Shown here: piece after piece, positions 13,324-32,727 of the stretch
Position numbering within the stretch: position 1 is the stretch's first letter
Layout: every line of letters begins with the position of its first letter
NCBI RefSeq assembly: GCF_000166415.1
Contig: NC_014654.1
Coordinates: 1,054,001-1,118,000 of the forward strand
Reading direction: 5' to 3'
DNA from: Halanaerobium hydrogeniformans
GTDB taxonomy: Bacteria; Bacillota; Halanaerobiia; Halanaerobiales; Halanaerobiaceae
DNA: 64,000 nt
The notes under the pieces: model-generated
What the model was told of the DNA's origin: nothing
The model's input: the letters and a program-made list of their open reading frames with translations, nothing else
The model's database searches: none
Translations under genes and position numbers: made by a program

Positions 13324-14922
13324 ATGAATAATCAAAATTCCGATTTTAATGCTCTTCTGACTAATATAAAAAGAAATTATACTCCAACTAGAAAAACTAT
13401 TCAAAAATCATGGGCAAGAAGTGGTAATTATGGAATTAAAACAGATCAATTTTCAAGTGATATAATCCTAAATAAAAGTGAAATAAGGGAAAGAATTAAG
13501 AAAAACAAAAACTTTGTTGAAAATTTTGACCTCTTATTTTCAGAATTTAGAGAATTAATCACAGAGCTTGCTGCTGCTTTTTTTGTTACCGATAAAGAAG
13601 GCTATATTCTTTCTTCAAAAAATTATCTGGACAATTATCTAAAATTGTCTGCCGGAGAAAATTATAGTGAATTTTATCAGGGGACAAGTGCGGTTGGTTT
13701 AACTTTATTTTCTAAAAAAGATTCTTATGTAAAAGATAAGGAACACTACAAAAAATTCTTGATAGATTATAATTCAGCTGCCTATCCTCTTTTAGATAAA
13801 GCAGGAATATTGACGGGGACAATTGCTGTTTTTTTTAGCAAAAATATCGATATATACTATATGCGTTTACTTATAAAATTATTTGCTTTTGCTTTAACAG
13901 ATAAGATTCCTGTTAAAGATTTAGTAGAAGAAGAATCAGATAAGAATAATCCCAAAACCGGCTCAAAAGCTCGTTATTTTTTCGAGGATATAATTACCAA
14001 TTCTAAAAAGATGAAAAAAGCCAAAGAAGTTGCAAAAATTGCGGCTAGAAATGATTCAACTGTAATGTTAATAGGTGAGAGTGGAACAGGTAAAGAGATG
14101 TTTGCTCAGGCTATTCATAATTATAATCACCGCAAAAACAGTCCCTTTGTTGCAATAAATGTGGGTGCGGTGCCGAAAGATTTAGTAGAAAGTGAGTTTT
14201 TCGGTTATGAAGAAGGAGCATTTACAGGGGCCAGAAGAGGTGGCCGGCCTGGCAAATTTGAATTAGCAAATGGAGGCACAATTTTTTTAGATGAAATAGG
14301 AGAAATGACCCTCTCAGCTCAGCAAAATTTATTAAGGGTTATTCAGGAGCGCGAGGTAACAAGGATTGGTGGAAACCATGCTATAAATATTGATGTTAGA
14401 ATTATCACAGCAACTAAGAAAAAACTCATGGATGAAGTTAAAAAAGGAAACTTTAGAGAAGATCTTTATTACCGGCTTAATGTAATCAGAATTCCACTGC
14501 CGAATTTAAAAGAACGCAAAGATGATGTAATTTTATTGGTTAAAAACTTTATTAAAAAACACTGCCAGAAATTTGGAATACCAAATAAAGAGATTTCTGA
14601 TGAGAGCAAAAAGTATTTTATAAATTATGATTGGCCGGGTAATGTTAGGGAATTAGAAAATGTAATAGAAGGTATAATAACTTTTGCAATGGATGACAAA
14701 GTTATTCAAACAAAGCATCTACCCAGAGAAATCAAAGAAAATAAAAGCTTAGATACTGATTCCGGGCAGATATTAACAATAGAAGCAGCAGAAAAAGAAG
14801 CAATAAAAAATGCTCTAAAAGTAGCAGCTAATAATGTCTCTGAAGCTGCTGAAATATTGGGTGTTACCAGAGCAACACTATATAATAAATTGAAAAAATA
14901 TAATATAAACTACAGGGAGTGA
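13324..14922 (+). CDS. Sigma-54-dependent transcriptional activator (AcoR-like)
   Basis: 532 aa enhancer-binding protein. N-terminal sensory part (1-200) with the SWARSGNYGIKTD start and GAF-like region seen in AcoR-type activators; AAA+ domain with Walker A GESGTGKE (about 251), the sigma-54 contact loop GAFTGA (about 298), Walker B GGTIFLDEIGEM and WPGNVRELEN; C-terminal Fis-type helix-turn-helix NNVSEAAEILGVTRATLYNK. No receiver domain, so it probably senses a small molecule. Its stop overlaps the upstream part of the next gene, making it co-transcribed with H4MPT biosynthesis genes, and a sigma-54-like promoter lies 4.3 kb downstream. It is the likely regulator of the C1 module, although the aco operon is an alternative target. 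Confidence 0.88.
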   Translation: MNNQNSDFNALLTNIKRNYTPTRKTIQKSWARSGNYGIKTDQFSSDIILNKSEIRERIKKNKNFVENFDLLFSEFRELITELAAAFFVTDKEGYILSSKNYLDNYLKLSAGENYSEFYQGTSAVGLTLFSKKDSYVKDKEHYKKFLIDYNSAAYPLLDKAGILTGTIAVFFSKNIDIYYMRLLIKLFAFALTDKIPVKDLVEEESDKNNPKTGSKARYFFEDIITNSKKMKKAKEVAKIAARNDSTVMLIGESGTGKEMFAQAIHNYNHRKNSPFVAINVGAVPKDLVESEFFGYEEGAFTGARRGGRPGKFELANGGTIFLDEIGEMTLSAQQNLLRVIQEREVTRIGGNHAINIDVRIITATKKKLMDEVKKGNFREDLYYRLNVIRIPLPNLKERKDDVILLVKNFIKKHCQKFGIPNKEISDESKKYFINYDWPGNVRELENVIEGIITFAMDDKVIQTKHLPREIKENKSLDTDSGQILTIEAAEKEAIKNALKVAANNVSEAAEILGVTRATLYNKLKKYNINYRE

Positions 14923-14927
14923 TCTAT

Positions 14928-16208
14928 TTGGAGGCAGTAGCAGTATTAGATATTAAACATGGAATTGTGGTCCAGGGTAGGGCTGGTGATCGAGAAAATT
15001 ATCAGCCGATAGAAAGCAGGTTAATTGCTGCTGATGATAAAAGTCCTCTGGCAGTTGCGAAAGCATTTTATAATAAATTAGCTATTAAAAAATTGTATAT
15101 TGCAGATCTAGATGCAATAATGAAAAAAGATGAGGCTAATATTGATGAAATTAAAGCCATTAAAAAAGAACTTCCCCAAGTAGAAATAATGCTCGATGCA
15201 GCTTTACTTGATTTTAAAACTGCTCAAAAGTACTTAGATGATTTTTTAGATTATTATATAATTGCCACCGAAAGTTTAAATGATCTTAAATACCTGGCAA
15301 AATTTAGTGATTACAGCAAAAAAGTAATTATTAGCATTGATCTAAAAAATGGTGAGTTAATTAATAATCTAGAGCAGTGGCAGGATAAAACTACCCGGCA
15401 GATAATTGAAGAAATCAAGGGATATGGCTTTAAAAAATTCATCATCCTTGATATAGCTGCAGTTGGAACAGCTAGAGGTATAGCAGCCTATATTAAGGAA
15501 CTGAAAAATTTATTTCCAGAACTTGAGTTCATAACCGGTGGAGGGGTAAAAGATTACAGAGATATTAAACCCTTAAAAAAGCAGGGTTTTTCTGGTGTTT
15601 TAATTGCAACTGCTTTTCATAATGGTTCTTTAGGCAGAAAAGAAGTAGAATTAATCGAAAATGAGAAAATATTATTTAAAATTGCCTGGTGTATTACTGG
15701 AGCTGGCCATCTTTTGGCAGAATCAATAGAGGAAATTGCGAACCTTAAAAATAAATATAATAACTTAGAGATAGATATCTATCTTTCGAAAGCCGGTTTT
15801 GAGGTTTTAAAAATTTATAAATTATTTAATAAATTAGAAGAACTTGGCTGTGAGATTCAAAAGGATAGTGCTGCAAGTTCTCCTATAATGGGCAGACTTT
15901 ATAAGGGTCATTATGATCTGCTGGTTAGTTCTCCCACAACCTCAAATACAGTCGCAAAATTTGTGCATGGTATTTCTGACACCTTAGTTAGTAATTTTCT
16001 GGCTCATGCAGGTAAATCAAAGATTCCAATACTTTTGCTGCCAACTGATACAGAGGAGGAACTAGTCTCAGCTGCCCCAAATAAAATGGTAGATGTTTAT
16101 CCAAGAGAAATTGATATTAAAAATACCGATAGACTTAAAGGAATTGATAAGCTAGAAATTATTTCTGATCTAGAAGAGGTGGAGCAATGGTTGAAAAATT
16201 ATTTATAA
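14928..16208 (+). CDS. HisA-like TIM-barrel fused to DmrB/AfpA-like flavoprotein
   Basis: 426 aa with two domains. Residues 1-235: HisA-like barrel as encoded in H4MPT gene clusters (AVLDIKHGIVVQGRAGDREN, IADLDAI, FITGGGVKDYRDI, GVLIATAFHNG). Residues 243-426: flavoprotein of the dihydromethanopterin reductase DmrB/archaeoflavoprotein type (IAWCITGAGHLLAESIEEI, AASSPIMGRLYKGHYDLLVS, SPTTSNTVAKFVHGISDTLV). The domains are normally separate genes. TTG 14928 is chosen because GGGAG (14915-14919) is eight bases upstream; a GTG at 14919 has no room for an RBS. DmrB reduces dihydromethanopterin to H4MPT; the HisA-like domain has no proven role. Confidence 0.8.
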   Translation: MEAVAVLDIKHGIVVQGRAGDRENYQPIESRLIAADDKSPLAVAKAFYNKLAIKKLYIADLDAIMKKDEANIDEIKAIKKELPQVEIMLDAALLDFKTAQKYLDDFLDYYIIATESLNDLKYLAKFSDYSKKVIISIDLKNGELINNLEQWQDKTTRQIIEEIKGYGFKKFIILDIAAVGTARGIAAYIKELKNLFPELEFITGGGVKDYRDIKPLKKQGFSGVLIATAFHNGSLGRKEVELIENEKILFKIAWCITGAGHLLAESIEEIANLKNKYNNLEIDIYLSKAGFEVLKIYKLFNKLEELGCEIQKDSAASSPIMGRLYKGHYDLLVSSPTTSNTVAKFVHGISDTLVSNFLAHAGKSKIPILLLPTDTEEELVSAAPNKMVDVYPREIDIKNTDRLKGIDKLEIISDLEEVEQWLKNYL

Positions 16209-17584
16209 CAGGCAAATTAGCTTATCCAGCTCTCAATAATACTTTAAAAAAGCTTGATTTAAAATTTGATTATCAAATAATTGAAATGCCGATTACCGTT
16301 GCAGCTTTAATTGACAGTAGTTTTATCTGCAAAAATCTCGAAAAAATAAAAGGTGATGTTTTAAAAAATGCAGAAGATTTAGAGATCATTATTCCAGGCA
16401 GATCTCAGGCAGAAGTCAAGAAATTACAAAACTTTTTTCAGAATAAAAATCTCAAATTTTATCAGGGACCAGATGAAATAATGGATCTGCCAGAATTTTT
16501 AGGCAAGAAAAAAATCAAGATCAATCTGGAAGAAAAAAGCCGAAAAAATAAAATACTTGCTGAAATCAATGCAGCTGCTCTGATGCCAATTTCCGAAATA
16601 GTTAAAAAAGCAGAATATTATAAAAAAAATGGAGCAGATATAATCGACCTGGGCTGTGTAAATGGCAGAGAATTTCCTCATCTAGAAGAATGTATTGCTA
16701 TTTTAAAAGATAAGGGTTATACACTGAGTATTGATACCTTTAATGCAGAAGAAATAAAAAGAGCAGATAAAGCAGGAATTGATTATTTGCTAAGTATCAA
16801 CAGCCATAATGTTTCTTTAATAAATGGAGAAAATTCTTTTATACCTGTTGTGATTCCCGACCCTGAAAAAGATTCTTTAAAATCATTATTAGCCAATATA
16901 GAAGAAGTAGAAAAAAGAGGCTGTGATAACTATATTGTAGATCCCATTTTAGATCCGGTTAATTTTGGTTTCAGTGATTCACTTTTTAGATATTTAAGCC
17001 TGGTTAAAAACAAAAATATTAAACAGCCAATTATGATGGGAGTGGGCAATTTAATAGAATTAAGTGACTGTGATAGTGTAGGCCTTAATTTTATAACCGC
17101 AGCCCTGGCTGTAGAGCTTAATATTGACTATCTATTAACCACAGAGGCTTCTTTTAAAACCAAAGGTGCGGTAAAAGAGTTAGATCTGGCCCTGAAAATG
17201 ATTTCTTATGCTGCTCAAAATAATAGTTTACCCAACAATATTTCTGAGTTATTATTAAATCTAAAAGACAGAAAAGACCTCAATTACAGTTTAGAGGAAA
17301 TCGAAGAACTGGCAGACTCTGTAAAAGACAAAAATTACAGGATTTTAAATGACGGCCAGAATATAAATATTTTTAATGCAAAAGAGTATTATAGAGGTCA
17401 GGATATTAATCAGCTTTTTAAAAAATTATCAGAAGTCAATGAACAGTCTCATGCCTTTTATCTGGGCAAAGAACTGCAAAAAGCTTATACTGCTCTCAAA
17501 CTCGCCAAAAATTACCGCCAGGAAGATGAGCTTAACTGGGGTTATTTAAATCAAAAATTTAAGGGAGATAAAAATGATAATTGA
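16187..17584 (+). CDS. Dihydropteroate synthase-like protein of H4MPT biosynthesis
   Basis: 465 aa. A DHPS-like TIM barrel occupies about residues 120-350 (EINAAALMPISEIVKKAEYY, GADIIDLGCVNG, LSIDTFNAEEIKRADKAGID, DYLLSINSHNV), preceded by an N-terminal Rossmann-like part and followed by a C-terminal extension. This is the archaeal/methylotroph DHPS-related family linked to joining the pterin to the ribofuranosylaniline unit. It overlaps the previous gene by 22 bases and the next by 11. A true folate FolP is a separate gene at 35.5 kb, which supports a methanopterin role here. The role is inferred. Confidence 0.72.
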   Translation: MVEKLFITGKLAYPALNNTLKKLDLKFDYQIIEMPITVAALIDSSFICKNLEKIKGDVLKNAEDLEIIIPGRSQAEVKKLQNFFQNKNLKFYQGPDEIMDLPEFLGKKKIKINLEEKSRKNKILAEINAAALMPISEIVKKAEYYKKNGADIIDLGCVNGREFPHLEECIAILKDKGYTLSIDTFNAEEIKRADKAGIDYLLSINSHNVSLINGENSFIPVVIPDPEKDSLKSLLANIEEVEKRGCDNYIVDPILDPVNFGFSDSLFRYLSLVKNKNIKQPIMMGVGNLIELSDCDSVGLNFITAALAVELNIDYLLTTEASFKTKGAVKELDLALKMISYAAQNNSLPNNISELLLNLKDRKDLNYSLEEIEELADSVKDKNYRILNDGQNINIFNAKEYYRGQDINQLFKKLSEVNEQSHAFYLGKELQKAYTALKLAKNYRQEDELNWGYLNQKFKGDKNDN

Positions 17585-18125
17585 AACAGTTATGACTAGC
17601 CTGGACAGCAAAAACGATTTAAATTTTTCTGCAATTGGGGTTGAGTTTGTTAAAGATAAAGTTATTTTTTACCCCTATAAAAATACAACAACAGCTGAAA
17701 ACATTTTAGCCACAAAAAAAGGAACTGTAAATATAGTTGATAGAAGCTATTATCTTATCCTGGCAGCTCTCTCAGAGCCTGAATTTGCAGTCGATAAAAC
17801 CGATCTGGGTAATTATTATTTAAAAGACTGCTGTTATTATTATGAATTTAAACTCTCAGCAATTTCTGATCTGGGTAAAAAATATAAATTAACAGCTAAT
17901 ATAACCGCTCAAAAGAGCAGAAATGATTTTATAGGTTTAAACAGGGCAGAGAATCTTCTTCTTGAAGCAGCAATTATTGCCTCGAGAATTGGAATTACTA
18001 AGAAAACAAAAGAATTAAAAAACTACTTAGCTGAAAACAGAGAAATTATCTTTAAAACAGGGGATCAAAAATCAAAAGAAAGCTATCTTTTCCTAAAAAA
18101 ATATTTACAAATACAGGAGGAATAA
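17574..18125 (+). CDS. DUF447-family protein
   Basis: 183 aa, beginning IIETVMTSLDSKNDLNFSAIGVEF, with VNIVDRSYYLILAALSE and a C-terminal LNRAENLLLEAAIIASRIG. This fits DUF447, a flavin-reductase-like split-barrel family conserved in methanogens and in bacterial H4MPT gene clusters; function unknown. Overlaps the DHPS-like gene by 11 bases and is followed by mptG after four bases, so it is a coupled member of the H4MPT biosynthesis operon. Confidence 0.7.
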   Translation: MIIETVMTSLDSKNDLNFSAIGVEFVKDKVIFYPYKNTTTAENILATKKGTVNIVDRSYYLILAALSEPEFAVDKTDLGNYYLKDCCYYYEFKLSAISDLGKKYKLTANITAQKSRNDFIGLNRAENLLLEAAIIASRIGITKKTKELKNYLAENREIIFKTGDQKSKESYLFLKKYLQIQEE

Positions 18126-18129
18126 ATAA

Positions 18130-19104
18130 TTGCTAAAAATAAAAACTCCAGCAAGACTTCATTTTGGTCAACTTGATCTAAATGGTGGTTTAGGCAGAAT
18201 ATATGGTGGCTCAGGAGTAGGGGTAAAAGAGCCCTATACTTTAATGTACTTTAAAAAAAGCAGAAAACTTGAAGTAAAAGGTGCTGATAATATAAAAAAA
18301 ATCGCAGCAGATTTTTTAAGCAGTTTAAAAAATGCCGATCTACTGGCTGAAGAAGCAGCTTTAAATATCAGGGTTGAAAAGCTTTTACCTGCTCACTGTG
18401 GTTTAGGCTCTGGAACTCAGATCGGGCTTTCTATTGCAGAAGCGGTTAAACAATTATATAATTTGCAGTTAAAAGAAAAAAGAACTGCCACCTTAGTAAA
18501 TAGAAAACACAGTCGTTCAGCAATTGGATTTGGTGCTTTTTATCAGGGAGGCTTTATTGTTGATGGAGGTAGACCAACTTCCCAAAAAGAAAATGATAAT
18601 TATTTGCCACCAGTACTATATAGAAAAGAGGTACCAGAAAGCTGGAATTTTATCATAATAATTTTAAATGAAAAAAGTGATAAAGTTGCAGGCAAAAAAG
18701 AAATAAAAATATTTAATAACATAGAAAAAATGCAGCTTAAAAAAAGTGCAGAAAACTGTCACCACCTTTTACTGGGTATGCTGCCGGCTTTAGAAGAAAA
18801 AAATTTAACTAAGTTTTCAAAACATCTTAATACAATAGAAGATAATGTTGCCAATTATTTTGCTCAAATTCAGGGAGGAAAATATAGCAGAGATTGTTCA
18901 GCAAATATTATAAACTTAATGGAAAGAGAAGGGATCCAGGCCAGAGGTCAGAGTTCCTGGGGTCCAACGCTTTATGGAATAGCAGAAGACAGAGAAAAAC
19001 TGCTTAATATTAAAAGAAAATTGGAAAGTGAATACCCAGAAATCATAAAAAATATCCTGGTAACTAAAGCTGCCAACAGTGGTGCAGAAATAGTTTATGT
19101 ATAA
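18130..19104 (+). CDS. mptG: Beta-ribofuranosylaminobenzene 5'-phosphate synthase
   Basis: 324 aa GHMP-superfamily enzyme that condenses 4-hydroxybenzoate or 4-aminobenzoate with PRPP, the committed step of methanopterin synthesis. Diagnostic: TPARLHFGQLDLNGGLGRIY at the N-terminus, the GHMP loop LPAHCGLGSGTQIGLSIAEA (about residues 90-110), and RGQSSWGPTLYGIAED near the end. Length matches archaeal and methylotroph RFAP synthases. TTG start with AGGAGGAA upstream. It is the strongest single marker that this organism makes an H4MPT-type cofactor. Confidence 0.9.
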   Translation: MLKIKTPARLHFGQLDLNGGLGRIYGGSGVGVKEPYTLMYFKKSRKLEVKGADNIKKIAADFLSSLKNADLLAEEAALNIRVEKLLPAHCGLGSGTQIGLSIAEAVKQLYNLQLKEKRTATLVNRKHSRSAIGFGAFYQGGFIVDGGRPTSQKENDNYLPPVLYRKEVPESWNFIIIILNEKSDKVAGKKEIKIFNNIEKMQLKKSAENCHHLLLGMLPALEEKNLTKFSKHLNTIEDNVANYFAQIQGGKYSRDCSANIINLMEREGIQARGQSSWGPTLYGIAEDREKLLNIKRKLESEYPEIIKNILVTKAANSGAEIVYV

Positions 19105-19236: not shown

Positions 19237-19253
19237 TTGGAACACTTTATGCA
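19237..19253 (+). promoter_or_regulatory. Putative sigma-54 promoter of the C1 operon
   Basis: TTGGAACACTTTATGCA has the -24 GG and -12 GC separated by exactly ten bases and keeps TTGG, AC and TGCA of the consensus YTGGCACGrNNNTTGCW. Transcription would start near 19264, leaving a leader of about 220 bases before the DUF2193-like ATG at 19486. A 7-bp inverted repeat (CATAATA 19172-19178, TATTATG 19195-19201) lies just upstream. A GAFTGA-type activator and rpoN are in the same window. Confidence 0.6.
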
Positions 19254-19304
19254 TTATATATAAGTGGAAACAAGTTTCACTAGTTTTTTAATTAGCTACA
19301 CATA

Positions 19305-19371
19305 AATTTCAGATGATTTCAGGTAATTATTGTTTTCAAAACTGCTTATAGTTATCTGAAATTAAAATTAC
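19305..19371 (+). promoter_or_regulatory. Inverted repeat / possible pseudoknot in the long 5' leader
   Basis: AATTTCAGAT (19305-19314) and ATCTGAAATT (19354-19363) form a perfect 10-bp stem. GTAATT (19323-19328) in its loop can pair with AATTAC (19366-19371) outside it, which would make an H-type pseudoknot. A strong Shine-Dalgarno-like AAAGGAGGG follows at 19378-19386 without a start codon. In AT-rich DNA such pairing can be accidental. Confidence 0.35.
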
Positions 19372-19485
19372 TTTATAGAAAGGAGGGTCATCTTAATAAT
19401 AGGGGATTAGAAGACAGAATAATAAGAAAATTGGGTTATTTGTTTTGAAAAATGAAATCTAAAAATTTACAGAGGGGGATGTTTT

Positions 19486-20973
19486 ATGGTTGCTAACGCA
19501 AAAATTGCTAAGAAAATGATCGATGAGGCTGTAGCGGCACAGATGGCTGATGTTGGTGTATTTAAAGAAAAGAGAGGTAAGAAGTTTAAAATCACTGATG
19601 CACAGCCTTATGTTGATGCAGTAAAAAACATGAAAGCCATTGAAGGTCAAAGCAAAGAAGTAATCGATCTTCATGTTGAATCTGTAAAAGCTCATTATGA
19701 GATTCTAAAAGATTTAACTGATACTATTGCTCCAAAAGATGATCCATTTGTTGAGCATTATCAGACACCTCCAATTCTCGAAATTCTTTATGAAGATGAT
19801 CCTGATTTCCGTGCTGCAGCCGAAAAGTTTATGGCACAGTTAGAAGCTGATGAAGCTCTAATCGCCAGAGAATCAATGCGTAGATATGGTGGAATGTATG
19901 GTCCTACCTGTGTTGTTGACTTTGCATTCAGTCCTGGCTCAGTAAGTAATGTAGTTAATGAAGTTCTAAAAAATACTGATATTGATAGTGATTACAAAAA
20001 AACACTTCTAGCTTCTAAGTCCTGGGGTATGAATACTTCTTATGGTATTGGTGCTGCCTTTACCGAAGCTGTTGAAGCAGGTAAAACTGCTACAGAAGCA
20101 GCTAGATTAGAAGTAGAGCAAATGCAAAAACTCTATGATACTCCTGTACAGGCTCAGGTAGATCTGATGGATGATGCAGATATGACTTCCTTTGATCAAG
20201 CTGAATACATGAAGCGCTATAAAAAGTGGATGAAACCTTATGTATTAGCTGCTAAAGAAGCTGGCGTACATCCCGGTAATATAGTTGTAGTTCCTGCTTA
20301 TTGTGTTGGGGATGTAGGACACCATATTGCCCAGTCAACCTTTAATATGCTTAAAGATGATGTAAATATGGAAATAGTAGAAGTTGTATCAAATATAATG
20401 AAAAATACACTTGAAAGAGGACTCGAAGAAGGTTATGAGAGCCTCTATGATATTTTAAGTGTTGCAACTGGTTCTACTGCAGCAGCTGTAAGTGCTATGT
20501 TATGGGATGAAGGATTTACTGCTCCGATGATCGTTGATCTACTTACAAAAAGATTCCACAACTATGTAAATCTAAATCCTGCTAGAGGACAGGCAGCTGA
20601 ATTACACAATGTTGACTTTATGGATATGATCCACCGTGGCGATAAAATTATTGATGATGAACCTATCGGTGCTGGCTGTAAAGTTAAAGGAATCGATGTT
20701 GACTTTAGCCCATGGAAAGAAAGCGATATTCTCAGTAATCTACATCGCTATGCTTATCCAGCCTGTTCTATAACAGTTAAGTTTTCTTCCTTTATGAGAA
20801 TGGCTGACTTCCCTTGTCTATTAACCAGTGAGCCAGTTACTGCTACCCTGATGACCAATATTATTGCAACCGATCCAGGTCAGGTAGTTGCTCCTGCACG
20901 TTATTGTAAAGATTGTGCAGTATGTATGTATATTAAGAAACACAAGCACTGTAACTGGAGTGATACTGTTTAA
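19486..20973 (+). CDS. DUF2193-like protein, candidate C1-entry enzyme
   Basis: 495 aa soluble protein resembling DUF2193, a family known from methanogenic archaea and some bacteria, without a described reaction. Features: acidic N-terminal helices, SMRRYGGMYGPTCVVDFAFS, GNIVVVPAYCVGDVGHHIAQ, NPARGQAAELHNVDFMDMIH, and a Cys-rich end RYCKDCAVCMYIKKHKHCNW with Cys474, 477, 480 and 489 that could bind metal. RBS GAGGGGG. Coding uses frequent favoured codons and the gene has its own putative sigma-54 promoter, long leader and trailing palindrome, suggesting high regulated expression. It directly precedes mtdB and there is no fae gene. The family call is from memory of motifs; the role is inference. 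Confidence 0.6.
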   Translation: MVANAKIAKKMIDEAVAAQMADVGVFKEKRGKKFKITDAQPYVDAVKNMKAIEGQSKEVIDLHVESVKAHYEILKDLTDTIAPKDDPFVEHYQTPPILEILYEDDPDFRAAAEKFMAQLEADEALIARESMRRYGGMYGPTCVVDFAFSPGSVSNVVNEVLKNTDIDSDYKKTLLASKSWGMNTSYGIGAAFTEAVEAGKTATEAARLEVEQMQKLYDTPVQAQVDLMDDADMTSFDQAEYMKRYKKWMKPYVLAAKEAGVHPGNIVVVPAYCVGDVGHHIAQSTFNMLKDDVNMEIVEVVSNIMKNTLERGLEEGYESLYDILSVATGSTAAAVSAMLWDEGFTAPMIVDLLTKRFHNYVNLNPARGQAAELHNVDFMDMIHRGDKIIDDEPIGAGCKVKGIDVDFSPWKESDILSNLHRYAYPACSITVKFSSFMRMADFPCLLTSEPVTATLMTNIIATDPGQVVAPARYCKDCAVCMYIKKHKHCNWSDTV

Positions 20974-21010: not shown

Positions 21011-21040
21011 TGAAGACAGTGGAATATTCCACTGTCTTCA
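21011..21040. repeat. Perfect 30-bp palindrome between the DUF2193-like gene and mtdB
   Basis: TGAAGACAGTGGAAT followed immediately by its exact reverse complement, with no spacer. No T run follows, so it is unlikely to be an intrinsic terminator. As RNA it would form a stable stem that could protect the upstream mRNA or act as a processing or attenuation site. Confidence 0.7.
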
Positions 21041-21062: not shown

Positions 21063-21920
21063 ATGAAAAAACTTTTAATTCAACTGGATACAGATAAAAG
21101 GGTTAGTACTTTTGATCAGGTTGTAGCTTATGATGCCGGGGTGGATAATATTATCGCTCACTCTGGAATAACTAAAGAAGAAGTAGAAGATATTATCTAT
21201 GGTGCTATTTTTACCCGTAGTGCAAAAAAATTAAAAAATACCGCTGTATTTATTGGTGGTTCTGATGTTGAAGCAGGCGAAGAAATCATGAAAGCTGTTA
21301 AAGATGTATTTTTTGCTAATTATAGTATTTCTACTATGCTGGATTCAAATGGTTCAAATACTACTGCAGCTGCAGCGGTATTAAAAATTAGAGAAGCCAT
21401 TGATTTAGTAAACAAAAAGGTTGTTATTTTAGCAGGTACAGGACCGGTAGGAGTTAGAGCAGCTGCTCTCTTTGCTAAAGAAGGAGCCTCTGTAACAATA
21501 ACTTCCCGTAAACAGGCTAAAGCTGATAGAAAAGCAGCCAATATCAAAGAAGTATATGGATTTGAAGATGTTAGAGGTTTAGAAGCAAATACTGATCAAG
21601 AATTCAGAAACGCTATCAAAGATAAAGATATTATCCTATCTGCTGGACCTCCTAAAATTAATTTCTTAAAAGAGGATATGTGGAAAAATACTGAGGGAAT
21701 TAAAGTTATGGCTGATATTAATGCGGTAAGTCCTGCCGGAATAGAGGGTATAAAACCACAGGATGATGGTGAAAAACTTGCTGATATTACAGTTTTTGGT
21801 GCTTTAGGTATTGGCGGCTTAAAAATGAAGTTGCATAAAAAGGCTGTTGCCAGTTTATTTAAAGATAATGATAAGTTTTTAAATGCTTTAGAAATCTATA
21901 AACTTTATGAGAAGATATAA
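21063..21920 (+). CDS. mtdB: NAD(P)-dependent methylene-H4MPT dehydrogenase
   Basis: 285 aa. Oxidises methylene-H4MPT to methenyl-H4MPT with NAD(P)+. Typical MtdA/MtdB blocks: TFDQVVAYDAGVDNIIAHSG, the FVGGSD-like FIGGSDVEAGEE, MLDSNGSNTTAAAAVLKI near the pterin site, and the Rossmann motif VVILAGTGPVGVRAAALFAK (about residues 120-140), followed by TSRKQAKADRKA where Arg/Lys suggests NADP can bind. RBS GGGGTGAAAAG. Bacterial MtdB, not the F420-dependent archaeal enzyme, so electrons go to pyridine nucleotides. Confidence 0.9.
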   Translation: MKKLLIQLDTDKRVSTFDQVVAYDAGVDNIIAHSGITKEEVEDIIYGAIFTRSAKKLKNTAVFIGGSDVEAGEEIMKAVKDVFFANYSISTMLDSNGSNTTAAAAVLKIREAIDLVNKKVVILAGTGPVGVRAAALFAKEGASVTITSRKQAKADRKAANIKEVYGFEDVRGLEANTDQEFRNAIKDKDIILSAGPPKINFLKEDMWKNTEGIKVMADINAVSPAGIEGIKPQDDGEKLADITVFGALGIGGLKMKLHKKAVASLFKDNDKFLNALEIYKLYEKI

Positions 21921-23185: not shown

Positions 23186-23539
23186 TTGCTTGAAAATAAA
23201 AGTTTTACCCTGATTACCGGAAGAACCATTAAACAGGGAATGGCTTCAGTCTCTGGCAAAAAAAATGAGGGCTATAAAAAAGAAACAGCCTATGTAGAGA
23301 TAAGCAAAAAATTGCTGGAAGAATATGAGATAAAAGAAGATGAAAAAGTGATTTTGCAGAGTGATTCAGGTAAAGTAGAAGTTAGATGTAAAGGGGCAGA
23401 TCTTTCTGAGAAGATAGTTTTTATGCCCTATGGAGAAACTGCAAATAAATTAATTGGAACCGATACAGGTGGTACAGGAATGCCTAACTCTAAAAGTAAA
23501 ATTGTTAAGATAATGCGGAAGGAGGAGAAGGCTAATTGA
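23186..23539 (+). CDS. fwdD: Formylmethanofuran dehydrogenase subunit D (molybdopterin-binding)
   Basis: 117 aa single molybdopterin-dinucleotide-binding domain. FwdD/FmdD hallmarks: TLITGRTIKQGMASVSGKK, YVEISKKLLEEYEIKEDEKV, and FMPYGETANKLIGTDTGGTG ending in MPNSK. In archaea FwdD with FwdB forms the tungsten/molybdenum formate dehydrogenase centre. TTG start with GGAGGGG upstream; the stop overlaps the TTG of fwdB. The classical methylotroph operon fhcABCD has no such separate gene, so its presence suggests a redox-active complex. Confidence 0.85.
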   Translation: MLENKSFTLITGRTIKQGMASVSGKKNEGYKKETAYVEISKKLLEEYEIKEDEKVILQSDSGKVEVRCKGADLSEKIVFMPYGETANKLIGTDTGGTGMPNSKSKIVKIMRKEEKAN

Positions 23540-24819
23540 CTAAAGTAAAAGAACACAAAAATATTACCTGCACATTTTGTGGAGCGCTCTGTGATAATAT
23601 CGAAGTTGAAGTAGAAAATAATCAGATTAAAAAACTAAAAAATGTCTGTGCAATTTCCAGAAAAAAATATGAGCATGCTCTAGAAGATAGAACCGTGCCG
23701 ATGATTGAGGGAAAGAAAAGTGACTATCAGTCAGTAATTAAAAAGGCAGCAGAAATTCTTGAAAATAGTAAAAATCCTTTGATTTATGGATTGAGCAGCA
23801 CAACTGCTGAGGCACAAAAGAATGCGGTCAAATTGGCTGAATTATCTGGGGCTAATATTGATAGTACCTCTTCTGTCTGTCATGGCCCGGGTACAATGGC
23901 CAAACAGCTGGTTGGAATGGTTACTGCAACCTTAGGTGAAATAAAAAATCGCTCTGATTTAATGCTTTTCTGGGGAGCTAATCCTGTTGAAGCACATCCA
24001 AATCATTCTAAAAGATACAGCATTTTATCTGAGGGATTATTTAAAAAGAACCGTTCAGAAAGAGAAATAATTGCCTTTGATGTGAGAAAAACTCCAACAG
24101 CAAAAATGGCAGATCATTATGTAGAGCTTGATCCGGGTAAGGATTTTGAACTACTAATGGCTTTAAGACTTTTGATAAATGGTAAGGAACTGAATACAGA
24201 AAAAGACAAAATAGCTGGAGTGAAAATCGCAGAAATAAAAGAAATTGCAGAAAAGCTTAAAAAAGCTAAATATGGCAGTATTTTTTATGGAATGGGTTTA
24301 ACTATGACAGGTGCAAAATATATGAATACCTGGGCAGCAATGAGCCTGATCAGAGATCTTAACAGTTATGGTCGCTTTGTAATGATGCCGATGCGGGGAC
24401 ACGGGAATGTAGCTGGAAGCGAAATTACAATGGCCTGGCAGACCGGTTATCCCTTTGCTGTTAATTTTAGTCGTGGTTATCCGCGCTATAATCCTGGAGA
24501 ATATACAGCTGTTGATTTACTGGCCAAGAAAGAGGTTGATGCAGCATTTATCATAGCTTCAGATCCAGCCGCTAATTTACCTCATCAAGCAGCAGCATTT
24601 TTAAAAGAAATACCAACCATTGTCCTTGATCCTCACTGGAATTTAACGACTGATCTGGCAGATGTAATAATTCCTTCAGCTTTAAAGGGAATTACTGCCT
24701 CGGGAACAGTTTACAGAATGGACCATGTACCTCTTCATCTGCGATCATTTTTAGAAGATGAGTGGCCGGATGATGCAGAAGCTGTTTCTAGAATAGGGGA
24801 GCTGATAGAAAATGCTTAA
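23536..24819 (+). CDS. fwdB: Formylmethanofuran dehydrogenase subunit B
   Basis: 427 aa molybdopterin oxidoreductase-type subunit. Cys12, Cys15 and Cys19 (CTFCGALC) plus Cys38 form a [4Fe-4S] motif. Cys115 in SSVCHGPG is at the position of the W/Mo-ligating Cys (or Sec) of archaeal FwdB. Further blocks: LMLFWGANPVEAHPNHSKRY, DVRKTPTAKMADHYVELDPG and VMMPMRGHGNVAGSE. With FwdD it would interconvert formate and CO2 beside FwdA. TTG start overlapping fwdD; ends overlapping fwdA by eight bases. Confidence 0.88.
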   Translation: MTKVKEHKNITCTFCGALCDNIEVEVENNQIKKLKNVCAISRKKYEHALEDRTVPMIEGKKSDYQSVIKKAAEILENSKNPLIYGLSSTTAEAQKNAVKLAELSGANIDSTSSVCHGPGTMAKQLVGMVTATLGEIKNRSDLMLFWGANPVEAHPNHSKRYSILSEGLFKKNRSEREIIAFDVRKTPTAKMADHYVELDPGKDFELLMALRLLINGKELNTEKDKIAGVKIAEIKEIAEKLKKAKYGSIFYGMGLTMTGAKYMNTWAAMSLIRDLNSYGRFVMMPMRGHGNVAGSEITMAWQTGYPFAVNFSRGYPRYNPGEYTAVDLLAKKEVDAAFIIASDPAANLPHQAAAFLKEIPTIVLDPHWNLTTDLADVIIPSALKGITASGTVYRMDHVPLHLRSFLEDEWPDDAEAVSRIGELIENA

Positions 24820-26488
24820 ATTAAAAAATGCTTTAATTTACGATCCAAAAAATAATAAAGACGGAGTTAAAGAAGATATCTGGATTAAAGATGAAAAAAT
24901 AGTAGATAAACCGTCAGAGAGAGAAATTAAAGAATTAAAAGCCAAGGATCAATTAGAAGAAATAGATCTGCAAAACAAAATTGTAATGGCCGGGGGAGTA
25001 GATATCCACTCTCATATTGCCGGTCCCAAAGTAAACTCCGGTCGGGTATTAAGACCTGAAGATCACAGGAGAGATAATGTACCCAGAAAGGGTAAACTGC
25101 GTTCTGGAGTTGGATCTACTGTACCCTCAAGTTATGTAACAGGTTATCGCTATAGTTTAATGGGTTATACCACTGTTATGGAAGCAGCCGGTCCACCCAT
25201 GAAAGCCAAGCATATTCATGAAGAATTTAATGACCTTCCTTTCATAGATAAAGGCTTTTTGGTTTTAAGTGGTAATAATTACTTTGTTTTAAAGTTTATC
25301 AGTGAAAATAATTTTGAAGCACTTAAAAATTATTTAGGCTGGTTAATAAATGTTACTGGTGCTTTTGCTCTAAAGGTTGTAAATCCGGGTGGAGTTGAAG
25401 CCTGGAAAGAGGGCAAAAGGATGCGAGGTATCCATGATAAGGGGACATCATTTAATTTAAGCCCTTCAGAAATTTTGCTGGCCCTTGCAAAAGCAAATGA
25501 TGAATTAGGTATTCCTCATGCAATTCATGTTCATACTAATGATCTTGGTACTGCAGGTAATTATAAAACAACCAACGAAACTCTGCAGCTGCTTAAAGAT
25601 TATAGGGTTCATGTTACCCATATCCAGTTTAGCAGTTATGGTAAAACTGAAAATGACAGGGTTAAATTTATCACTGCTACAGACCAGGTAGCAGCAGAAA
25701 TAAACCGTCAGCCAAAATTAACTGTAGATATTGGACAGTTAGTATTTGGAGAAGCTACCACTATGACCGCAGATGGAATATTAGAGTATAATCTGCATAA
25801 ACTCTCGGGCAATAAATGGGTTAATACCGATGTAGAAATGGAAACAGGTTCGGGGATCGTACCCATGAATTATAAAAAGAAAAACCTAGTTAATGATATT
25901 CAGTGGGCTACCGGGATGGAATTATTCTTAAAAATTGAAGATCCCTGGAAGGTCTTTTTAACCACTGATCATCCAAATGCTGGCCCATTTACAGCTTACC
26001 CCTGGATAATAAAATTACTGATGGATAGCAACTATAGAAATGATTATATTTCTGGAATGCACAAAAAGTTTGATGATTATACAGATCTAAGTAATTTAAA
26101 GCGAGAATATGATTTATCTGAAATTGCAGTTATTAGCCGTTCAGGTCCAGCTAAAGCACTTGGGCTAGAAAATAAAGGGCATTTAGGTGTTGGAGCTGAT
26201 GCAGATATTACTGTCTATGAAAATTTAGAAAACAGGGATATTGCAGAAGTTTTTGCAAAACCTAAATATGTATTTAAATCTGGAACGATGATCGTCAAAG
26301 ATGGTGAATTAATAACCGAATTACAGGATGGTAAAACATTGGTTACTAAACCGGATTATGATCCTCAAATTGCGGAAGATATTAGAGAAGAATTCCAAAA
26401 ATACTACAGTATTTCTATTGACAATTATGGTGTTACAGATAATTATTACAAGAAAGTAGAGGTGGTTCCATGCAATTTCAAGGGATAG
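24812..26488 (+). CDS. fwdA: Formylmethanofuran dehydrogenase/hydrolase subunit A
   Basis: 558 aa amidohydrolase-fold subunit that hydrolyses N-formylmethanofuran to formate and methanofuran. Binuclear zinc ligands are in place: His66 and His68 (GGVDIHSHIAG), carboxylated Lys188 (FALKVVNPGG), the His in HAIHVHTNDLG and VTHIQFSSYG, and catalytic Asp386 (TTDHPNAGPF). The length equals archaeal FwdA/FhcA. Coupled to fwdB by an eight-base overlap and to ftr by 19 bases. With all metal residues kept, the deformylase step should work. Confidence 0.92.
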   Translation: MLKLKNALIYDPKNNKDGVKEDIWIKDEKIVDKPSEREIKELKAKDQLEEIDLQNKIVMAGGVDIHSHIAGPKVNSGRVLRPEDHRRDNVPRKGKLRSGVGSTVPSSYVTGYRYSLMGYTTVMEAAGPPMKAKHIHEEFNDLPFIDKGFLVLSGNNYFVLKFISENNFEALKNYLGWLINVTGAFALKVVNPGGVEAWKEGKRMRGIHDKGTSFNLSPSEILLALAKANDELGIPHAIHVHTNDLGTAGNYKTTNETLQLLKDYRVHVTHIQFSSYGKTENDRVKFITATDQVAAEINRQPKLTVDIGQLVFGEATTMTADGILEYNLHKLSGNKWVNTDVEMETGSGIVPMNYKKKNLVNDIQWATGMELFLKIEDPWKVFLTTDHPNAGPFTAYPWIIKLLMDSNYRNDYISGMHKKFDDYTDLSNLKREYDLSEIAVISRSGPAKALGLENKGHLGVGADADITVYENLENRDIAEVFAKPKYVFKSGTMIVKDGELITELQDGKTLVTKPDYDPQIAEDIREEFQKYYSISIDNYGVTDNYYKKVEVVPCNFKG

Positions 26489-27369
26489 AGATAGAAAATA
26501 CATTTGCAGAAGCATTTAATATGTATGGAACAAGAATTATTGTTACAGCTGATAATAAAAAATGGGCAAAGATTGCCGCTCGAGAATCAACTGGTTTTGC
26601 TACCTCAATTATTGAATGTGGTATTGAAGCAGGAATCGAAAGAGAACTACGTGAAGAAGAAACTTTAGATGGTAGACCGGGTTACAGTTTGCTCTTTTTT
26701 ACAATGAAAAAAGATAATCTCCAAAAAGAATTACGCAAAAGAATCGGTCAGACCATTATGACTGCAGCTACAGCTGCCTGTTATAATGGATTAAAGAGTC
26801 AGGAAGAAATTAAAGTAGGCTCTAATATCCGCTATTTTGGTGATGGCTATCAAATCTCTAAACTCTATGATAAAAGAAGGTTCTGGAGGATCCCGATTAT
26901 GGGAGGAGAATTCTTGATAGAGGAGAGTTTTGGCATTAAAAAAGGTCTTGGTGGTGGAAACATTATCATTGTTGCTGAAGATCAGAAAAAGGCCCTCAAT
27001 GCGGCTGAAAAGGCAGTAGAGGCAATGAAAGAGGTTGAAGGTATAATTATGCCTTTTCCAGGTGGAATTGTCAGCAGTGGCAGTAAAGTTAAATCAAAAT
27101 ATTCATTTTTAAATGCCTCTACCAACACTCCCTACTGTCCAACAATAAAAGCACAGGTTGAAAGTGAACTTCCTGCTGAGGCCGGTTCTGTCCTGGAAAT
27201 AGTTATTGATGGTTTAAGTGTCAAAGCTGTAGAAGAGGCAATGAAAGTTGGAGTTAAAGCAGCTGCTGTTCAAGGAGTGATCAAGATTACTGCAGGTAAT
27301 TATGGAGGAGATCTTGGCTCTGAGAATATCTATCTTCATGAAATATTGAGAGGTGGTCTTAGTGAGTAA
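26470..27369 (+). CDS. ftr: Formylmethanofuran:H4MPT formyltransferase
   Basis: 299 aa Ftr (FhcD in methylotrophs), which moves the formyl group between N5 of H4MPT and methanofuran. Starts FQGIEIENTFAEAFNMYGTR, continues STGFATSIIECGIEAGIERE, LDGRPGYSLLFFTM and GGEFLIEESFGIKKGLGGGN, all family signatures. Length matches archaeal Ftr. Lies between fwdA and fwdC in the order A-Ftr-C seen in methylotroph fhc operons, with overlaps on both sides. Confidence 0.93.
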   Translation: MQFQGIEIENTFAEAFNMYGTRIIVTADNKKWAKIAARESTGFATSIIECGIEAGIERELREEETLDGRPGYSLLFFTMKKDNLQKELRKRIGQTIMTAATAACYNGLKSQEEIKVGSNIRYFGDGYQISKLYDKRRFWRIPIMGGEFLIEESFGIKKGLGGGNIIIVAEDQKKALNAAEKAVEAMKEVEGIIMPFPGGIVSSGSKVKSKYSFLNASTNTPYCPTIKAQVESELPAEAGSVLEIVIDGLSVKAVEEAMKVGVKAAAVQGVIKITAGNYGGDLGSENIYLHEILRGGLSE

Positions 27370-28216
27370 ATTACAATTAACTTTAAAAAGAGAAAACCCG
27401 GCGCTAATAAAAAAAGATAAAAAGATTATAGGAAAAGTACCTGTAGAAGCTCAAAATATAGATCCCGCTCTGCTAAAAGACCTCAATATTTCTGAGATAG
27501 GAGAGATAAATTTATTATGCGGCAAAAATACTTATCAGCTCAATGATTTTTTCGAAATTGAGGGTAGTCCCTCAGAAGAGATAATTATCAATGGTAACTT
27601 AAGCAATTTTAAATATTTAGGAGCTGGTATGAAAACTGGCAGTATAACAGTCAATGGCAACCTGGGTATGCATTCAGCTTCAGAAATGGAAGCCGGTTAT
27701 CTTGAGGTTAACGGTAATGTAGGGGACTGGCTGGGAGCCGAAATGACCGGAGGTTTTATTAAAATAAATGGTCATGCTGGTAATTATATAGGTGCTGCTT
27801 TCAGAGGAGATACCCTTGGCATGAATCGTGGTGTTATATATGTAAAAGGAAATGCCGGTAATTTTGTTGCTAATAAGATGCGTAGAGGTGAAATAATTAT
27901 CGAAGGTGATTGTGGTGAGCTTCTTGCTGCTCAAATGATAGCGGGTTCAGTCTATGTTTTTGGTAGTTGTGGCAGCAGGATTGGAGCAGGTATGAAAAGA
28001 GGTACGATTGTTACTTTAAATGATGTTGAGACGCTGCCCACTTTTAATTACAATATTAGTTATTTCCCCGATTTTTTAAATATTGCCTATAATCATCTCA
28101 AAAAAGATTATGGAGTTGAGGTACCACCTAAGGCACATAAAGGCAGGTACAAAAGATATACAGGTGATAATACCGAATTAGGGAAAGGAGAAATATTGAT
28201 ATGGGAAAACGCCTAG
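27362..28216 (+). CDS. fwdC: Formylmethanofuran dehydrogenase subunit C
   Basis: About 284 aa. The middle and end consist of GltB-like parallel beta-helix repeats of the pattern G-x3-G-x2-M-x2-G-x-I-x-V-x-G-N-x-G (MKTGSITVNGNLG, MEAGYLEVNGNVG, MTGGFIKINGHAG, MRRGEIIIEGDCG, MKRGTIV). This subunit scaffolds the Fwd/Fhc complex. GTG 27362 is chosen since AGGTGG at 27351-27356 is correctly spaced; the in-frame GTG at 27353 lies inside that RBS. Overlaps ftr by eight and mch by 16 bases. Confidence 0.9.
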   Translation: MSKLQLTLKRENPALIKKDKKIIGKVPVEAQNIDPALLKDLNISEIGEINLLCGKNTYQLNDFFEIEGSPSEEIIINGNLSNFKYLGAGMKTGSITVNGNLGMHSASEMEAGYLEVNGNVGDWLGAEMTGGFIKINGHAGNYIGAAFRGDTLGMNRGVIYVKGNAGNFVANKMRRGEIIIEGDCGELLAAQMIAGSVYVFGSCGSRIGAGMKRGTIVTLNDVETLPTFNYNISYFPDFLNIAYNHLKKDYGVEVPPKAHKGRYKRYTGDNTELGKGEILIWENA

Positions 28217-29166
28217 CTTTAAACAAAAATGCTGTAATGCTGGTTAAAGAAATGTTACAAATGAGAAGAGAGTTAAATATAGAATTACACCATTATGATG
28301 ATGGAATTACAGTAATAGATGGTGGAATTAATGTTAAAGGTGGTTATGAAGCTGGAGCGTATTTTTCAGAAATCTGCCTGGGTGGAATGGGAAAGGTTGA
28401 TTTTTGTGATTATGAAATTGATTCTTATTTAATTCCTGCTGTTAAGGTTCAGGTTGATCATCCCTTAGAAGCATGTATGCTATCTCAATATGCAGGTTGG
28501 AAAATAGAAAAAGATGACTTTTTTGCCATGGGATCTGGCCCGGGTAGGATGTTGGTCAAAAAAGAAGATATAATAAAAGAATATGATGCATATTATGAAA
28601 GCAAAAATGCTCCTGCTGTAATAGTTCTTGAATCATCACAGCTGCCAGATGAAAGTACAGCAGAGTATATTGTTGATGAAATGACAACCCCCTGTAGTGA
28701 TAGCTATATACTGGTAGCTCCAACCGAATCTTTAGTTGGTTCTATTCAAATTAGTGCCAGGATTGTGGAAACGGGAATGCACAAACTTCACGAATTAGAT
28801 TTTGACCTTAAAAAAGTCGAAGCAGCTTGGGGTATCTGTCCGGTTTCTCCAACAGCAGATGATAGTTTAAAAGGTATTGGCAGGACCAATGATGCGGTTT
28901 TATATGGAGGTACAGCCTATTATCAATTTTACTGTGAAGATGAAGAAATCGAAAAAATAATTGAGCAGATACCTTCTTCTTCATCAGAAGATTATGGAGA
29001 AAAGTTTTTAACCCTTTTTAAGCGTTACAATAATTTTTATGATATCGACCCTATGCTTTTTAGCCCTGCTCGTGTTATAATAAATAATAGGAAAACTGGA
29101 AAAGTATATAAAGCAGGTAAAATTAATGCAGAAATATTAAAAGAATCATTTTTCAATAATGGTTGA
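28201..29166 (+). CDS. mch: Methenyl-H4MPT cyclohydrolase
   Basis: 321 aa Mch, which converts methenyl-H4MPT to N5-formyl-H4MPT. Family blocks: LHHYDDGITVIDGGINVKGG, GAYFSEICLGGMGKVDFCDY, MLSQYAGWKIEKDDFFAMGS then GPGRM, LVAPTESLVGSIQISARIVE, and GICPVSPTADDSLKGIGRTN. Length matches archaeal and methylotroph enzymes. Overlaps fwdC by 16 bases. Together with mtdB, ftr and fwdABCD it completes the path from methylene-H4MPT to formate or CO2. Confidence 0.93.
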   Translation: MGKRLALNKNAVMLVKEMLQMRRELNIELHHYDDGITVIDGGINVKGGYEAGAYFSEICLGGMGKVDFCDYEIDSYLIPAVKVQVDHPLEACMLSQYAGWKIEKDDFFAMGSGPGRMLVKKEDIIKEYDAYYESKNAPAVIVLESSQLPDESTAEYIVDEMTTPCSDSYILVAPTESLVGSIQISARIVETGMHKLHELDFDLKKVEAAWGICPVSPTADDSLKGIGRTNDAVLYGGTAYYQFYCEDEEIEKIIEQIPSSSSEDYGEKFLTLFKRYNNFYDIDPMLFSPARVIINNRKTGKVYKAGKINAEILKESFFNNG

Positions 29167-30050: not shown

Positions 30051-30072
30051 ATTAGAGATAGGAGTGAGCTGG

Positions 30073-30984
30073 ATGTCATTAACTGATCAAGAAATCGCTC
30101 AGGTTTTACAGATTGCCTGTTTACTGGAGGCAAGTACTGCCAAACCTGGTAATGTAAGTCCGGGCAGAGAATTTGAAGATTTAAAATATAGAGATTTTTT
30201 ATTTAGTTCTGCAGCAGTATTTCCAGCTTTTTTGGATCTTGAGCAGAAATCAGTGGGAGAAATAATTTATCAGGCTGTTAGAGAAACTCATTCTTTTATC
30301 AAAACTAATACGAATCTGGGGATTATACTTCTCTGTGCTCCTTTAGCTTCTGCCTATTCTCGGTTAAGAGCTAAAACAGAGATTGAATCTCTTGCTCAGA
30401 GTGAATTAGTTATTCAGCTTAGAAAAGAACTTAAACTGCTTTTAAATAATTTAGATCAAAAAGACGCAGAACACTGTTATCAAGCAATTAATTATTCAAA
30501 GGCTGGTAATTTAAAAGAAGTTGATCAGGCTGATATCAGTGAAAAACCGGAAATAACTCTTTTAAAAGCCATGAAACTGGCTGAAAAAAGAGATAATATA
30601 GCATTTGAATATACAAATAATTATTCTATAACTTTTGATTATGCTTATCCTCGTTTTAAGCAATACAGTCAAAAATATAATGAGATAGAAAAAATAATAA
30701 TAATGACTTTCTTAGAAATATTAGCTGAATATCCTGATACTTTAATTGTTAGAAAACACGGTCTTAACAAGGCTGTAGAGGTATCCAGATCAGCTGCAGA
30801 AGTTTTGCGGTCAATTAATTTAGAACAGAAAGATTTCTGGCAGCAGATAGAAAAATTTGATCAAGAATTAAGAACTCAGGCAGAGAAAGTTAATCCCGGA
30901 ACTACTGCTGATTTAATTACAGCAGTAATATTTTTAGCTATTTTAATTTCCGGGAAAAAATTGATTAAAAATTGGGCAGATTAG
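30073..30984 (+). CDS. CitG-like triphosphoribosyl-dephospho-CoA synthase family protein
   Basis: About 303 aa, all-helical. LEASTAKPGNVSPGREFEDL, KTNTNLGIILLCAPLA and IVRKHG with a final PGTTADLITAVIFLAIL define the CitG/MdcB family. In methylotroph and methanogen H4MPT/methanofuran clusters a CitG-like gene recurs, with no citrate lyase, so it probably serves cofactor synthesis. ATG 30073 is preferred to GTG 30064 because GGAG (30061-30064) precedes it by eight bases. The reaction is unknown. Confidence 0.75.
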   Translation: MSLTDQEIAQVLQIACLLEASTAKPGNVSPGREFEDLKYRDFLFSSAAVFPAFLDLEQKSVGEIIYQAVRETHSFIKTNTNLGIILLCAPLASAYSRLRAKTEIESLAQSELVIQLRKELKLLLNNLDQKDAEHCYQAINYSKAGNLKEVDQADISEKPEITLLKAMKLAEKRDNIAFEYTNNYSITFDYAYPRFKQYSQKYNEIEKIIIMTFLEILAEYPDTLIVRKHGLNKAVEVSRSAAEVLRSINLEQKDFWQQIEKFDQELRTQAEKVNPGTTADLITAVIFLAILISGKKLIKNWAD

Positions 30985-31005
30985 TTAATTAGGAGGGGGA
31001 TATTA

Positions 31006-32726: not shown

Positions 32727-32727
32727 A

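Follow-up and report, generated by a model that had tools for sequence, protein, structure and literature searches.

DUF2193 as a candidate C1-entry enzyme of the H4MPT pathway in Halanaerobium hydrogeniformans, with AqpM-type channels and MtrH as partners in other genomes

The H4MPT/methanofuran module of methylotrophic bacteria (reviewed by Chistoserdova, PMC5020050) is a described counterpart of the locus reported here. MtdB, Mch, Ftr, Fwd/Fhc and the cofactor synthesis genes are common to both, but the present locus belongs to an anaerobe, encodes FwdB together with FwdD, lacks Fae, and has a gene of the DUF2193 family at the head of the module under sigma-54 control. The H4MPT/methanofuran pathway of these anaerobic bacteria has no assigned entry. 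Fae (PF08714) resembles DUF2193 in its proposed role, in which formaldehyde-level carbon would be loaded on H4MPT where the MtdB-Mch-Ftr-Fhc pathway begins. However, DUF2193 has no match to PF08714 and is a predicted all-helical protein of ~500 aa, compared with 159 positions in the Fae profile, and the two are nearly exclusive in the bacteria examined. We infer by analogy that DUF2193 may work like Fae while standing outside the Fae family. MtrH, the methyl-H4MPT:corrinoid methyltransferase (PF02007), has a homolog coupled to a DUF2193 paralog in eight archaeal genomes, although DUF2193 does not resemble MtrH and no MtrH accompanies the canonical DUF2193 gene. MtaB, the methanol:corrinoid methyltransferase (PF12176), would have a similar substrate if DUF2193 acted on methanol, but DUF2193 has no PF12176 match, no corrinoid protein recurs beside it, and mtaB is absent from H. 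hydrogeniformans. Finally, AqpM (PDB 2f2b, 3ne2) shares a Phe-Ile-x-Arg filter with channels encoded beside DUF2193 in other genomes. It is absent from the window (the whole stretch of 64,000 nucleotides that was analyzed) and from the H. hydrogeniformans genome, and the AqpM literature that we found treats the protein as stand-alone, with a solved structure and a debated cargo.

The original prediction placed a DUF2193-like gene ahead of mtdB, at the head of a C1 operon where a C1-entry enzyme is expected. Profile searches bore out both the family and the position: the open reading frame matches PF09959 over its full length (824.5 bits against a curated cut-off of 25, E 3.6e-248, profile positions 2-498 of 498), and the next gene in the 3' direction encodes an Mpt_N/MtdB-type dehydrogenase. 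The features of the locus are as follows.

13324-14922, + strand: sigma-54 activator (PF00158, 232 bits); by synteny, most other Bacillota have a homolog immediately 5' of DUF2193
14919-19104, + strand: HisA/flavoprotein, DHPS-like, DUF447 and beta-RFAP synthase genes, for H4MPT synthesis
19238-19253, + strand: sigma-54 promoter (-24 GG / -12 GC), TGGAACACTTTATGCA, 248 nt from the DUF2193 ATG; score 17/19, equalled by 0 of 300 shuffles; each of the 17 other Bacillota loci has a corresponding site
19264-19485, + strand: predicted untranslated leader, its start site placed 12 nt past the -12 element
19486-20973, + strand: DUF2193 protein gene, 495 aa, ATG start (PF09959, 824 bits; AlphaFold2 model pLDDT 90.5, pTM 0.92)
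21012-21039, + strand: palindromic hairpin without a U-tract in the DUF2193-mtdB gap, inverted repeat GAAGACAGTGGAA/TTCCACTGTCTTC (-23.8 kcal/mol, z -8.6)
21063-21920, + strand: MtdB-type methylene-H4MPT dehydrogenase (PF09176 Mpt_N, 112 bits)
23186-28216, + strand: FwdD, FwdB, FwdA, Ftr and FwdC, formylmethanofuran dehydrogenase and formyltransferase (TIGR03129, TIGR03121, PF01913/PF02741, PF01568, PF01493)
28201-29166, + strand: Mch, methenyl-H4MPT cyclohydrolase (TIGR03120, 383 bits; PF02289, 417 bits)
30064-34421, + strand: CitG-like, MptA, MfnB, MfnF-like and MfnE-like proteins, for H4MPT and methanofuran synthesis (TIGR00294, NF002575, TIGR03123, NF040622, PF01874)

MtdB, Mch, Ftr and Fwd/Fhc A-D are encoded together with cofactor synthesis proteins (RFAP synthase, MptA, MfnB, MfnE/F), which makes the H4MPT/methanofuran oxidation and cofactor module around DUF2193 complete. 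The gene order 3' of DUF2193 is MtdB, ATP-grasp, FwdD, FwdB, FwdA, Ftr, FwdC, Mch, RimK-like ligase, CitG-like, MptA, MfnB, MfnF-like and MfnE-like; the upstream side (13324-19104) holds the sigma-54 activator and H4MPT synthesis genes. The MfnB, MfnE and MfnF matches fall below the NCBI equivalog cut-offs, with MfnB far above that of Pfam (PF04476). An ADP-ribosylglycohydrolase-like gene (34439-35437, judged by eye) lies in the same gene run, between the methanofuran genes and folP/folB/folK.

PF09959 was the only family found in the DUF2193 protein by Pfam profile search, which gave no Fae (PF08714) match, and no NCBIfam model matched it. The single 2.61-Mb contig of the H. hydrogeniformans genome holds one copy. 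A GTDB scan, of which we analyzed the best 80 of 264 relatives (37 archaeal and 43 bacterial loci), included a protein of H. polyolivorans with 94% identity. Identities between bacteria and archaea or between phyla were 54-65%, which fits an enzyme. No DUF2193 was found in the viral contigs scanned. Codon markers make DUF2193 the most optimized gene within its operon, which lends weak support to the high expression proposed for it originally.

A sigma-54-like promoter, a long leader and a stable palindrome had been proposed from the sequence; the promoter and the palindrome were upheld. We scored -24/-12 sites on a weighted scale with a maximum of 19 in the 380 nt upstream of DUF2193, with a shuffle test. 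All 18 Bacillota loci, the window included, had a site scoring 16-18 (shuffle p <= 0.027 each). By comparison, the upstream regions of 15 of the 17 loci lacking an activator were unremarkable, and two were borderline (L051, p 0.07; L070, p 0.033). The locus thus has both a -24/-12 promoter and an enhancer-binding activator, as expected of a sigma-54 regulated operon. In the two Bacillota outside Halanaerobium whose activators were scanned, these proteins contain GAF and PAS sensor domains, which makes it probable that a signal induces the operon. The predicted leader, as placed by the promoter, is ~220 nt long. The stem of the hairpin that follows DUF2193 is preserved by compensating paired changes in four other Halanaerobium loci (L022-L025). 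A role as a standard terminator is ruled out by the missing U-tract, so that the hairpin is probably an element of mRNA stability or processing, and a stabilizer is likelier than a terminator. Rfam searches with the leader and the hairpin gave nothing credible; a sub-threshold match of the hairpin to a microRNA family was attributed to chance.

We then considered how DUF2193 is distributed relative to H4MPT genes and to fae, a co-occurrence that the original prediction had named as a check. In one draw of 398 Bacillota genomes, 11 carried DUF2193, and in all 11 the gene adjoined a sigma-54 activator and genes of the H4MPT/methanofuran C1 pathway. Mch was present in 8/11 positive but only 18/387 negative genomes (Fisher p 1.6e-8). 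The three positive genomes lacking Mch are incompletely assembled, and C1-pathway or methanofuran genes are nevertheless found on their DUF2193 contigs. Among the best 80 of 264 relatives, H4MPT genes were found at 38 of the 43 bacterial loci, which span Bacillota, Synergistota, Chloroflexota, Actinomycetota, Caldisericota, Desulfovibrionaceae and others; the remaining five lie on short contigs or in partial bins. In a wider set, 37 of 44 DUF2193-positive genomes had Mch, and most or all of the seven exceptions are partial metagenome bins, among them one of ANME type, in which the pathway must be present. Widespread occurrence of DUF2193 without H4MPT genes, which would have spoken against a role in this pathway, is therefore not what the genomes contain. 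In the same survey, several Bacillota (G014, G076, G099, G133, G188, G213 and others) had between two and five Mch-like genes, in many cases arranged in tandem, and neither DUF2193 nor Fae.

A fae gene elsewhere in the genome would likewise have weakened the case. Profile searches of the whole H. hydrogeniformans genome found no fae (PF08714), mer (TIGR03555), mtaB (PF12176) or mtrH (PF02007), which extends to the genome, for these four families, the earlier statement that the window holds no fae, mer or corrinoid methyltransferase. Fae was also absent from all 11 DUF2193-positive Bacillota and from the other non-Chloroflexota bacteria searched. Three Anaerolineae had distant Fae-like domains only, in proteins of ~500 aa that occur as pairs in genomes with DUF2193 (G402:C44, G405:C98/C194, G407:C10). 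No mer scored above the curated cut-off in any of 27 bacterial genomes, MtrH was missing from most bacterial carriers, and MtaB was found in five carriers, including Ca. Formimonas. With no mer in these 27 genomes and no mtaB or mtrH in that of H. hydrogeniformans, carbon arriving as methyl-H4MPT would have no visible onward route in bacteria, and it is simpler to suppose that carbon comes in at the methylene (formaldehyde) level.

The commonest neighbor of DUF2193 was not an H4MPT gene. ORF clustering over the best 80 of 264 relatives identified an aquaporin at 56 loci, ahead of any H4MPT gene and in nearly every case on the DUF2193 strand, 13-302 nt downstream of that gene. This AqpM-type channel adjoins DUF2193 at 37/37 archaeal and 19/43 bacterial loci of that set, and comparison of two lists showed an aquaporin in 79 of 81 DUF2193 carriers among Methanobacteriota. 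For the two channels searched, the best solved relatives were the archaeal AqpM structures 3ne2/2f2b (304-314 bits), and the selectivity-filter positions read Phe-Ile-(Ser/Ala/Gln/Thr)-Arg in all 54 readable channels beside DUF2193. Mapped on a maximum-likelihood tree, the channel label requires only five changes, compared with 21.6 for shuffled labels, and occurs on archaeal and bacterial branches, a pattern compatible with an old association that may have been lost in places. Halanaerobium, Synergistota and several other carriers have no aquaporin adjoining DUF2193, and some, H. hydrogeniformans among them, have none in the genome; DUF2193 can therefore work without the channel. We found no report of a pairing of DUF2193 with AqpM or MtrH in the literature searched, which mostly excluded subscription papers and preprints. 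In many archaeal loci (L039, L043, L058, L063, L078 and others), a small zinc-ribbon ORF of ~75 aa, DUF2180-like by pattern rather than by profile, lies between DUF2193 and aqpM. In Methanocalculus and Thermoleophilia loci (L042, L063 and related), a flavodoxin-like protein with a cysteine motif, a possible redox partner, directly follows the aquaporin, ~2.5 kb past the DUF2193 start.

A second association came from a divergent second DUF2193 (DUF2193b; ~580-690 bits), found in eight archaeal genomes (L106-L113, e.g. L109:6820-9106) that are probably Archaeoglobi. It directly follows an MtrH homolog in all eight, with overlapping reading frames in seven; the MtrH was assigned from a profile match in three of them and by eye in the others, and neither of the two genomes searched has another MtrH. 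MtrH binds methyl-H4MPT, and the pairing therefore supports, as an independent line drawn from gene order, a role of the family as a whole in exchanging C1 units with H4MPT. DUF2193b keeps E90, E129, D276, H279, H280, E372, H374, D377, D380, C427, D441, C444, E449, C474 and C477, while H63, H91, D86, Y272 and C273 are changed. The residues kept may belong to a shared chemistry and those changed to the canonical substrate.

The original prediction also proposed that a Cys-rich C-terminus (474, 477, 480, 489) could bind a metal. In an alignment of 68 DUF2193 sequences, Cys477 is present in all, Cys474 in 65 and Cys489 in nearly all, so that the CX2C...C signature of the Halanaerobium protein is near-invariant family-wide. 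Cys480 is not conserved and drops out of the proposed set, to which Cys444, present in 68/68 sequences, should be added. These cysteines form part of an invariant His/Asp/Glu/Cys set that includes His279/His280 and His374-Asp377-Asp380. The AlphaFold2 model, built with the 68 sequences, is all-helical, and no Rossmann (nucleotide-binding) fold is visible in it. Comparison of the whole model with the PDB by Foldseek and VIA-align gave no credible relative (best Foldseek E 0.24, best VIA Z 4.8), nor did residues 286-495 modeled alone give a usable one (pLDDT 88.9; E 2.5, Z 3.6); for predicted models such as these, the lack of a match does not prove a new fold. A single-sequence match of residues 179-363 to the cobalamin region of methionine synthase (E 0.0009) was rejected as chance, as it disappeared with the 68-sequence profile and the model has no Rossmann domain there.

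On this evidence we tentatively favor, as a reading that is quite possible but falls short of probable, a DUF2193 that acts as a C1-entry enzyme onto H4MPT at the formaldehyde level, Fae-like in function, with AqpM as the inlet where it is encoded. A small neutral C1 compound would be oxidized to CO2 by the anaerobic H4MPT/methanofuran pathway with DUF2193 as its entry. Where a channel is encoded alongside, it would admit hydrated formaldehyde, or methanol that is oxidized by a general alcohol dehydrogenase. A metal site formed by His279/His280, His374-Asp377-Asp380, Cys444 and the C-terminal CX2C...C would bind the formaldehyde-level carbon, DUF2193 would condense it with H4MPT to methylene-H4MPT, and MtdB, Mch, Ftr and Fwd would next oxidize it, yielding reduced NAD(P) and ferredoxin. 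Catalysis by DUF2193, the metal, the substrate and the direction of flow are what we infer here. Consistent with C1 entry are the inducible sigma-54 control, the H4MPT neighbors, the missing fae, the AqpM and MtrH pairings, and invariant polar residues that are mostly kept in the paralog. Genomic context has in this way strengthened the earlier idea of a C1-entry enzyme where Fae is missing, and partly supports the earlier interpretation, under which a C1 group would be transferred or released onto H4MPT. Formaldehyde-level carbon is our best guess for the reaction, favored because the bacteria have no Mer and no nucleotide-binding fold is visible in the model. Several observations run against this reading. 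Fae is present in 9/10 DUF2193 archaea searched, so DUF2193 is not a simple replacement there; H. hydrogeniformans has no aquaporin, and the channel is not required; the MtrH-paired paralog hints at the methyl level; formaldehyde is rarely abundant as an outside substrate, which is odd for an inducible operon with a channel; and the model matches no known fold from which chemistry could be deduced.

Methanol is a close rival as substrate, since control by induction and the presence of a channel would both make sense for an outside substrate that is abundant, and since the paralog lies beside a methyl-transfer protein. DUF2193 would then activate methanol at a metal site and hand its carbon to H4MPT, either in methyl form (together with MtrH for the archaeal paralog) or through a coupled two-electron oxidation to methylene-H4MPT. 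AqpM is described as narrow and less polar than a water channel, with its cargo unsettled (PMC3287591), a filter that would suit a methanol-sized solute. Some carriers, such as Ca. Formimonas, use methanol (PMC8163858), and a bypass from methanol through formaldehyde to methylene-H4MPT, which we count in favor of methanol, has already been proposed for Archaeoglobi (PMC7380581). However, in bacteria the canonical gene is accompanied by neither a corrinoid protein nor mer or mtrH, the model has no Rossmann fold for the redox step, many carriers are not known methanol users, and mtaB is present as well in Formimonas and four more carriers. We therefore regard direct use of methanol as a serious but unlikely explanation.

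A role in making, repairing or recycling H4MPT or methanofuran would account for the location of DUF2193 among cofactor synthesis genes in bacteria, but is improbable, because Methanocaldococcus jannaschii (a control), 69 of 150 Methanobacteriota genomes (DUF2193 being present in the other 81) and 18 mch-positive Bacillota do without it; DUF2193 moreover has its own inducible promoter, and archaeal copies sit with AqpM rather than with synthesis genes. Broken, stop-containing DUF2193 genes were seen in four Methanobacteriota (G470:C21, G501:C89, G530:C59, G578:C24), which suggests that the function is dispensable and being lost there. The one paper naming DUF2193 in the literature searched, a proteomic study of Methanococcus voltae, found Mvol_0354 more abundant on FeS2 and suggested an iron-sulfur role (PMC9431491). 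Handling of iron-sulfur or other metal, with which the CX2C...C tail would agree, is very improbable for the family, as the cited evidence is of abundance only and the links to the C1 operon, AqpM and MtrH would go unexplained. That DUF2193 is a partner or regulator of AqpM in osmotic or gas exchange, as its universal pairing at the archaeal loci might suggest, has the slimmest chance of all, given the Halanaerobium, Synergistota and other carriers without an adjacent aquaporin.

More broadly, DUF2193 could conceivably represent a novel class of C1-activating enzyme, metal-dependent, all-helical and without a known structural relative, found in methanogens, ANME and scattered anaerobic bacteria, which together with AqpM would form an overlooked Fae-, Mer- and corrinoid-free route for methanol or formaldehyde into the H4MPT pathway and would give AqpM its cargo, a proposal that is somewhat doubtful as a whole. 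The links of DUF2193 to AqpM and to the C1 operon, and of DUF2193b to MtrH, point to one answer for both the pathway entry and the AqpM solute. If true, about half of the sampled Methanobacteriota, together with Halanaerobium, Moorella and Acetomicrobium, would have an unrecognized C1 capacity.

Some individual loci differed in gene content. In bacterium GBS-1 (L095:6970-9779), a sodium:solute symporter (PF00474), a possible clue to the imported compound, precedes DUF2193 together with a CdaR-like regulator, in place of an aquaporin. In two Anaerolineae (L045:11798-14828 and L055), the genes after DUF2193 encode a short-chain dehydrogenase, a MoaD-like protein and an aldehyde ferredoxin oxidoreductase. 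A contig labeled Actinomycetota (L060) is probably mis-binned, as its DUF2193 and the one in a Bathyarchaeota bin (L062) are nearly identical.
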